A stretch of 64,000 nucleotides of DNA, taken from assembly GCF_003428625.2 (NCBI RefSeq), contig NZ_QVQT02000002.1, forward strand, positions 593,026 through 657,025, read 5' to 3'. Shown here piece after piece: positions 61,286-64,000 of this stretch (its first letter is position 1; each line of letters begins with the position of its first letter). The position numbers and the translations under genes are program-made. Origin of the DNA: Paracidobacterium acidisoli. Lineage in GTDB: Bacteria > Acidobacteriota > Terriglobia > Terriglobales > Acidobacteriaceae. Below the pieces are notes generated by a model, which did not search any database, had not been told where the DNA came from, and was given only the letters and a program-made list of their open reading frames with translations.

Positions 61286-61305
61286 GGCACGGCTTTAGCC
61301 GTGCC
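61286..61305. repeat. REP-like palindrome family B, copy 1
   Basis: GGCACGGC and GCCGTGCC around TTTA, preceded by TGTATCAGG. A very similar element lies at 63402-63421. Confidence 0.7.
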
Positions 61306-61974: not shown

Positions 61975-63189
61975 ATGTCGAAACTTTCCATCCGCGACCT
62001 CGACCTTGCGCATAAACATGTCTTCATGCGCGTGGATTTCAACGTGCCGCTCACCGACGACGGCTCTGAGATCACCGACGACACCCGCATCCGCGAGACC
62101 CTGCCTACTATCGAATACGCGCTGCGCCACAAGGCCAAGCTCATCCTCGCCTCGCACCTCGGCCGCCCCAAGGGCAAGGTGAACCCGAAGTACAGCCTGC
62201 GCCCCGTCGTCGACCGGCTCCGCGTCCTGCTCGACCATCACCTCGGCGAAAAGATCAACGTTGCGTTTTCTCCCGACTGCGTCGGCGACATCGCCACCGA
62301 GCTCTCGCGCCAGCTTGAGTCCGGCCAGGTTCTGCTGCTTGAAAACCTGCGCTTTCACGCCCAGGAAGAGGCCAACGATCCGGCCTTCGCCAAACAGCTC
62401 GCCTCGCTCTGCGAGCTCTACGTCAACGACGCCTTCGGCAGCGCCCACCGCGCCCACGCCTCCACGGAGGGCATCACCCACTTCGTAAAGCAGTCCGCCG
62501 CCGGCCTGCTCATGGAGAAGGAGCTGCAGTACCTCGGCAAGGCCCTCGAAGAGCCCGCCCGTCCCTTCGTCGCCATCCTCGGCGGCTCCAAGATCTCCGG
62601 CAAAATCGACGTGATCAATAACCTGATCGACAAGGTGGACACCCTCATCATCGTCGGCGGCATGGCCTATACCTTCCAGCGCGCCCTCGGAGTCACCACC
62701 GGTAAATCGCTCGTCGAAGAAGACAAGATCGGCGTCGCCAGAGAGGCGCTCGATAAGGCAAAGGCCAAAGGCGTGACCCTCCTGCTGCCCGTCGACAACA
62801 TCCTCGCCGATGCCTTCTCCCCCGACGCCAAAACCCAGGCCTGGGATACCAGCAAAGACTTCCCCGCCGACTGGCAGGGCCTCGACATCGGTCCCGAAAG
62901 CGTAAAGCTCTTCTCCGCCGAGATCGCCGAAGCCGAAACCATCGTCTGGAACGGCCCCGCCGGAGTCTTCGAGTTCCCCCGCTTCGCTGTCGGCACCAAC
63001 GCGATCGCCGAAGCCGTCGCCGCTAATCAGGATGCAGTCACCATCGTCGGCGGAGGCGATTCCGTCGCAGCGGTGAAACAGGCCGGCGTCGCCGACCGGA
63101 TCAAACACATCTCCACCGGCGGCGGAGCCAGCCTCGAATTCCTCGAAGGCAAAAAACTCCCCGGCGTCGAAGCACTGACGAATAAGTAA
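61975..63189 (+). CDS. pgk: Phosphoglycerate kinase
   Basis: The product is 404 aa, normal. Substrate-binding [50 protein letters not shown], the GGSKISGKI nucleotide region and the C-terminal [16 protein letters not shown] are intact. It makes ATP and 3-phosphoglycerate from the product of GapA, encoded two genes upstream. A longer start (61888) is ignored because it overlaps the ridA stop and adds no family residues. Confidence 0.96.
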
Positions 63190-63273: not shown

Positions 63274-63293
63274 CACCGGGCTTCAGCCCGGTG
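63274..63293. repeat. REP-like palindrome after pgk, CACCGGGC type
   Basis: CACCGGGC and GCCCGGTG with a TTCA loop. Same loop type (TTCA/TTTA) as the neighbouring elements. Confidence 0.65.
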
Positions 63294-63401
63294 AATAAAG
63301 CCAGGATTTTCGAGGGGCTTTAGCCCTGGACCGTTTCTTTATCATTTGTCAAACGCTGCTGGAATCAGATAGTGGGCCGATTGAAATTGGTTTTGTATCA
63401 G

Positions 63402-63421
63402 GGCACGACTTCAGTCGTGCC
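63402..63421. repeat. REP-like palindrome family B, copy 2
   Basis: GGCACGAC and GTCGTGCC around TTCA, preceded by TTGTATCAG as in the copy at 61286. Compensating changes in both arms (GGC/GCC to GAC/GTC) keep the stem. Confidence 0.7.
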
Positions 63422-63497
63422 GCAGACATCAGAAAATGTGCCCGGGCTTTAGCCTCGAAGAATTATCCTGCGGTTACAGAAGCTACTGAATGTACCG

Positions 63498-64000
63498 ATG
63501 AACAAGCAAGTCATCATCGACGAAATTCGCCGCATTGCAGAATCTGATGGAGGGATTGCACCCGGAAGAGACAAATTTGAAAAAGAGACTGGCATCCGCG
63601 AAAGCAAGTGGCGCGGTATTTACTGGCTTAAGTGGTCTGAGGCAATCGTCGAAGCTGGATACAGTCCTCGTGAATTTCAGGCTGCATACGCAAAGGATCT
63701 GGTCTTATCTAAACTTGCTGGCCTTATCAGAAAAAAGGAGCGCTTTCCAACTAGTACGGAAATTCGGATGGAAAAGCAAATTGATCCCGAATTTCCATGG
63801 GACAGCGTTATTAGGCGCCTTGGTGCTAAGGCGACATTGATTCGTTTAGTTCGTGATTTTTGTCAAGATCGCGATGAATTTCGAGATATCGTCGAATTTT
63901 TGCCAGTTTCTCCTGAAATTCACGACGGTAAATCAGCTAATTATTCTCACAAATCAGAACTTGATGGATCGGTTTATTTACTCCGGTCGGGCAAGTTCTA
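63498..64000 (+). CDS. Truncated (by window end) GIY-YIG-type nuclease with HEAR-like N-terminal repeats
   Basis: ATG at 63498; the frame is open to the window edge, giving 167 residues. N-terminal part shows two similar segments, TGIRESKWRGIYWLKWSEAI with AGYSP and later WDSVIRRLG, resembling homing-endonuclease-associated repeats. The last residues, GSVYLLRSGKF, match the first strand of T5orf172/GIY-YIG domains (VYLL..GKFYKIG). Composition is clearly more AT-rich than the rest of the window, suggesting acquired DNA. The catalytic residues lie beyond the edge and cannot be checked. Confidence 0.65.
   Translation, partial: MNKQVIIDEIRRIAESDGGIAPGRDKFEKETGIRESKWRGIYWLKWSEAIVEAGYSPREFQAAYAKDLVLSKLAGLIRKKERFPTSTEIRMEKQIDPEFPWDSVIRRLGAKATLIRLVRDFCQDRDEFRDIVEFLPVSPEIHDGKSANYSHKSELDGSVYLLRSGKF

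Follow-up and report, generated by a model that had tools for sequence, protein, structure and literature searches.

A putative two-part GIY-YIG endonuclease gene in Paracidobacterium acidisoli and its relatives in integron cassettes

Phage ICP1 carries a chimeric T5orf172 nuclease, Odn, whose N-terminal DNA-binding part is described as directing it to the replication origin of a satellite (PMC8263062). It is that origin which Odn is reported to cut, and the substitution E180A abolishes its activity (PMC8263062). In another account, of the chromosomal integron of Aeromonas sp. 3925, the cassette orf6 is described as encoding a GIY-YIG protein (PMC10609294). Our own subject is a 239-residue protein encoded by the acidobacterium Paracidobacterium acidisoli. 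We think it probable that its gene, a solo one, was acquired horizontally and encodes a two-part DNA endonuclease of a family that is carried as integron cassettes and also occurs as solo genes.

One AT-rich gene between pgk and vapC

The window, by which we mean the whole 64,000-nucleotide stretch analyzed (G000:C8:593026-657025, plus strand), ends inside the gene. To read past the edge we used L009, 19 kb of the same contig. The initial annotation had described a frame open to the last base, with a composition unlike that of the window, and both points stand. The ORF reading runs uninterrupted from 63498 up to 64000 and continues beyond it to a stop at L009 position 7243, which is 64217 on the scale of the window and G000:C8 657242, for a protein of 239 amino acids. 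The gene is AT-rich and looks foreign by composition, at 44.4% GC against 62.7% in the rest of L009, and in the GC profile of L009 the low GC stops where the gene stops. A promoter search upstream gave one candidate where 1.3 are expected, which is not above chance. Features within the window are collected in Table 1.

Table 1. Coordinates of the gene, its parts and its surroundings on the scale of the window
Feature	Position	Strand	Remarks
REP-like palindrome	61286..61305	.	8-bp arms
pgk (phosphoglycerate kinase), left neighbor	61975..63189	+	recognized from sequence
REP-like palindrome	63274..63293	.	8-bp arms
Bipartite REP-like unit, two palindromes	63391..63454	+	just left of the 239-residue gene; further similar units in the genome
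REP-like palindrome	63402..63421	.	8-bp arms
5' 503 bp of the 239-residue gene	63498..64000	+	ORF; end at window-scale 64217
N-terminal repeat 1, helix-turn-helix-like	63498..63662	+	residues 1-55; weak PF18780 match, residues 3-55
N-terminal repeat 2, helix-turn-helix-like	63681..63914	+	residues 62-139; fold comparison
GIY-YIG (MUG113/T5orf172) domain start	63942..64000	+	residues 149-239; within the window, first strand only

On the right the gene is followed in L009 by a PIN-domain vapC gene (Pfam), then vapB, then tpiA; pgk, vapB and tpiA are what we take these neighbors to be on inspection of the sequence by eye. The gene is therefore intergenic, between pgk and vapC, with both of those frames whole and with no intron, intein or interrupted target gene, and no tRNA anchor was found in L009. 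It had been suggested that the gene opens a mobile or defence-type island continuing to the right. We reject such an island, since the low GC ends with the gene and the core genes are back after this one gene. No partner genes were found beside it, and the neighborhood, made up of metabolic genes plus a vapBC pair, is not that of a defence island. PADLOC, run on this single protein, returned only a Cas2 match at chance level (E 0.033). What survives of the word "mobile" applies to the family, through integron cassettes, a route the initial annotation did not name; there is no island at the window copy.

The surroundings of the gene can be compared with those in other members of the bacterial family. 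A vapC-vapB query matched 17 of 150 same-family genomes, the window genome counted, and three of the 17 were viewed. G499 (L041) has pgk, an unrelated 226-aa ORF, vapC, vapB and tpiA in that order. G535 (L040) has a similar ORF before vapC and a second ribbon-helix/PIN-like pair before tpiA, on a stretch without pgk, and G008 (L042) has an unrelated gene and then vapC-vapB-tpiA. Because vapBC lies beside tpiA in these three genomes, we regard the order vapC-vapB-tpiA as older and the slot ahead of vapC as variable. An unrelated ORF of about 210-226 aa occupies that slot in both L040 and L041; the 226-aa version has no Pfam or NCBIfam match.

The REP-like palindromes noticed ahead of the gene are real. 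Palindromes with perfect 8-bp arms and a four-base loop number three in the whole window, where 50 mononucleotide shuffles average 0.02. Their reading as the sign of an island did not hold up. A 601-base query starting at 63400 gave 17 other partial matches in the genome, 23 to 67 bases long, at E<=0.001, and a unit repeated elsewhere in the genome without the 239-residue gene is no mark of an island. Across the genome these palindromes have TTYA loops and are often paired about 25 bp apart.

A GIY-YIG domain behind two repeats

The strand DGSVYLLRSGKFYKIG straddles the window edge and had been taken for the first strand of a GIY-YIG/T5orf172 domain. The complete protein bears this out: in Pfam it scores 50.9 bits against MUG113 (E 2.4e-13), whose cut-off is 22.3, and 24.6 bits against T5orf172 (E 3.6e-5), whose cut-off is 20. 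Catalysis in the GIY-YIG core depends on a Tyr, a Lys/Tyr-x-Gly, an Arg and a Glu. Beyond the edge the YKIG, Arg and Glu are all present, as the initial annotation would have them. Across the 14 rows of a family alignment, one of them without the N terminus, Y160, K169, G171, R179 and E206 are the same throughout. This invariant core persists at about 40% identity, and MUG113 and T5orf172 are matched by 14/14 alignment members (Pfam). Judged by these residues and profiles, the catalytic core is intact and the protein belongs to the MUG113/T5orf172 branch of GIY-YIG nucleases. An NCBIfam scan of the protein gave no match. Seven PHROGs families matched, phrog_8130 best of all (E 1e-15); the matches lie largely on the GIY-YIG part, and none of the families has a useful function name.

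The N-terminal half had been read as HEAR-like repeats, a reading that is significant at the level of the family and weak for the single protein. PF18780 (HNH_repeat, the homing-endonuclease-associated repeat) is matched by nine of the 14 alignment members at E<=1, the best at 6e-8. The Pfam scan of the whole 239-aa protein found no PF18780 match, and its N-terminal 139 residues alone gave E 0.05 and 14.4 bits, below the cut-off of 26.

Structure prediction gave a model with a mean pLDDT of 84.2 and a pTM of only 0.38, so we trust the domains more than their arrangement. Foldseek with this model found no match at E<=0.001. In a second look with VIA-align, in which every Z score for the model was below 8, residues 1-56 (best Z 6.6) and 62-142 (best Z 6.5) aligned with TetR-type DNA-binding domains, and residues 149-239 with Slx1 (6sei, Z 6.3; 7cq2, 5.5; 4xm5, 5.5; 7cq4, 5.3). 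Sulfite-reductase gamma chains fitted residues 1-62 as well (Z 6.0-6.2). A sequence search of solved structures with the protein found none at E<=10, and a profile search gave three chains at E 0.79-1.3, all unrelated and set aside.

Integron cassettes and solo genes in the family

The family is sparse and widely scattered. Among relatives it occurs in one of 99 genomes besides that of the window, and in the phylum there are two real matches in 395 genomes, a third (L014) having been dropped as a chance match. A genome-collection scan yielded 16 loci across many phyla, and when two more phyla and an order were searched the family turned up in 5/398, 5/392 and 4/399 genomes, seeds included. We kept 23 two-domain relatives from 21 genomes. 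Left out, besides L014, were fragments or wrong frames (L030, L031), loci with the GIY-YIG part only (L032, L033), a C-terminal half retained in the tree (L059), and partial matches or other architectures (L060, L061, L065, L066); L012 and L019 are one place, as are L011 and L025, and each pair was counted once. The solo copies are scattered over many different intergenic places. Three of the 23 belong to one genome, G1181 (L063, L067, L068), where they are dispersed solo copies on three contigs, each intergenic. Searches of phage records with the 239-aa protein found no match. Among plasmids there was one partial match for this protein, three partial ones for the L027 protein and none for the L028 protein; viral contigs gave two domain-only matches.

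Palindromes resembling attC sites stood directly after the stop codon in the first relatives, as seen by eye. From eight such sites, first picked by eye, we built a covariance model, R1. Its helices covary, with 10 of 22 pairs changed on both sides against a shuffled mean of 4.5 (0/500 shuffles as high). Run on 20 loci at E<=0.01, R1 gave 23 sites on the plus strand and a single one on the minus strand. Fifteen of the 23 plus-strand sites lie outside the building set, all of them in the eight cassette loci (L013, L018, L019, L024, L025, L027, L028 and L029); the other 12 loci, L009 among them, have no site at this threshold. Another attC follows straight after the gene in L069 (E 1.5e-5), which like L018 and L027 contributed nothing to R1. 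R1 found no attC in L070 or L071 and, in ten other later loci, a site in L066 only, which is not a two-domain relative. All told, attC adjoins the gene in 9/23 two-domain relatives, from several phyla, and 14/23 are without one. In L029 the attC is upstream and the gene has lost its 3' end. Rfam searches of L010, L025 and L028 gave nothing at gathering score. The HEAR-like repeat proteins of L065 (1501-2334) and L066 (1051-1917) have another C terminus, without the GIY-YIG part, and the attC-like site of L066 is at 2266-2324 on the minus strand.

In L012/L019 the gene ahead of the relative encodes an integron integrase, matching TIGR02249 at 437 bits (cut-off 265). One pair of loci comes from different bacteria: L028 2520-3167, from Nitrosomonas, and L029 3978-4625, from Ottowia, are 95.5% identical over 648 bp, and the similarity begins exactly at GTTAGAC, the core of the attC before it, the trace expected when an integrase has moved one cassette. 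On these sequence comparisons, carriage of relatives as cassettes between distant bacteria is shown. A 22-row tree, which predates L069-L071 and has 4/19 inner branches well supported and nine open, mixes the phyla, and cassette copies fall among solo ones. The labels cassette and solo change seven times on it, at least three of the changes forced by well supported branches; since the shuffled mean is 6.8, the two states are not clustered. By eye, the next cassette in L012 (2358-2983) resembles a HigBA-type toxin-antitoxin pair with its own attC at the end.

The window copy is another matter. An unfiltered R1 search of L009 6000-8200 found no attC near it (best 5.2 bits), and only 31 bp separate the stop of the gene from the stop of vapC. 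No attC appeared in the whole window genome either, where 150 of 3106 candidates were scored; this zero is weak, because the same scan overlooked known sites in two other genomes: a third one in G359, at L019 6223, and in G566 its single site, at L027 1883. As positive controls at E<=1, G081, G359 and G375 gave 10, 2 and 36 matches. An IntI query had five matches in the window genome, the best of them XerC-like (TIGR02249, 126 bits, cut-off 265). With no attC and with this best integrase match, we do not file the window copy as a cassette. A candidate cassette start 25 bp before its ATG, GTTACAG, misfits GTTRRRY, and as a GTT is likely by chance it was not counted as evidence. Since so many relatives are without attC at the gene, cassette ancestry for the window copy is a guess: it may have descended from a cassette whose attC was later lost. 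Integrases are described as able to insert cassettes at attG, which are non-classical sites in the genome (PMC12901181).

Possible roles and comparison with known systems

How might such a gene work and spread? The two N-terminal HEAR-type, helix-turn-helix-like repeats would bind DNA and the C-terminal MUG113/T5orf172 GIY-YIG domain would cut it. Promoterless integron cassettes carry the family between unrelated bacteria, and members also settle as solo genes in ordinary intergenic sites such as that between pgk and vapC; the window copy would have arrived by cassette or by a solo copy derived from one. The most likely role, by analogy with Odn, would be to cut mobile DNA that invades or competes, in a site-directed way, though it could be selfish homing. 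A bolder form of this role, which we consider rather unlikely as a whole, makes the family a cross-phylum set of programmable-looking endonucleases with two helix-turn-helix repeats and a GIY-YIG domain, shipped by integrons as single-gene cassettes, fixed outside them, and acting to destroy competing mobile DNA; integrons would then hold a reservoir of Odn-like nucleases.

Homing is the main rival. A free-standing homing endonuclease would cut a cognate intergenic site where its gene is absent and be copied in by repair, with integrons as one landing place among others. HEAR repeats are named for homing endonucleases, T5orf172/MUG113 genes are treated in one account as phage homing genes (PMC10448857), and solo copies occur in many intergenic places, three of them in G1181. 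Yet the neighbors of the solo copies viewed are unrelated (purD/mnmG, gnd/clpB and pgk/vapC, by eye), no common target is evident among them by eye, and the movement of the cassette copies is already explained by the integrase; we regard the homing account as unlikely and favor site-directed cutting of competing DNA. The Slx1 chains among the GIY-YIG rows of the fold comparison would suit a structure-specific repair nuclease, acting on branched or flapped DNA and taken up as accessory cargo. Those rows may merely reflect the GIY-YIG structures that Foldseek ranked, and two helix-turn-helix-like repeats with a scattered distribution ill suit a housekeeping repair enzyme, which makes this a distinctly improbable role.

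It might also be asked whether the gene does anything at all. Of the nine cassette copies, three are broken: L019 has an in-frame TGA, L013 is frameshifted and L029 has lost its 3' end. This argues against a steadily selected function. The promoter count at chance and the sparse spread in relatives and phylum would likewise fit a passive, decaying passenger without present function. On the other side, no stop interrupts the matched frame in the window copy or in the 14 solo relatives, which speaks for a kept function, and at about 40% identity the core has not changed. We think a mere passenger very improbable, and site-directed cutting of competing DNA remains the role we favor.

By itself the gene is one more GIY-YIG orphan, and its route matters more. 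The family gives us a traceable nuclease that moves between phyla as a cassette and is then met as solo genes without attC, and it bears on how cassette genes exit integrons. Should its members prove to cut mobile DNA at a defined site, a sequence-guided type of nuclease would be added to the cargo of integrons.

Set beside HEAR (PF18780) plus GIY-YIG homing-type endonucleases, the protein, on the family-level reading of its repeats, would have the same kinds of domain in the same order, and differs in that its gene splits no other gene and its relatives are cassettes or solo intergenic genes. With Odn, as described in PMC8263062, it would share a gene that stands alone and an N-terminal DNA-binding part, joined to a T5orf172 GIY-YIG domain at the C terminus that retains Arg and Glu; the N terminus of Odn is RepA_N, whereas that of our bacterial protein has two HEAR/HTH-like repeats. 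Likened by description, Aeromonas orf6 (PMC10609294) and the family relatives are alike integron cassettes for GIY-YIG proteins, and the window copy differs in lying outside any integron. A single GIY-YIG cassette was thus already known from Aeromonas, going by the account in PMC10609294. The family-wide link to integron cassettes, which our searches of open-licence papers did not turn up, is what we regard as new.
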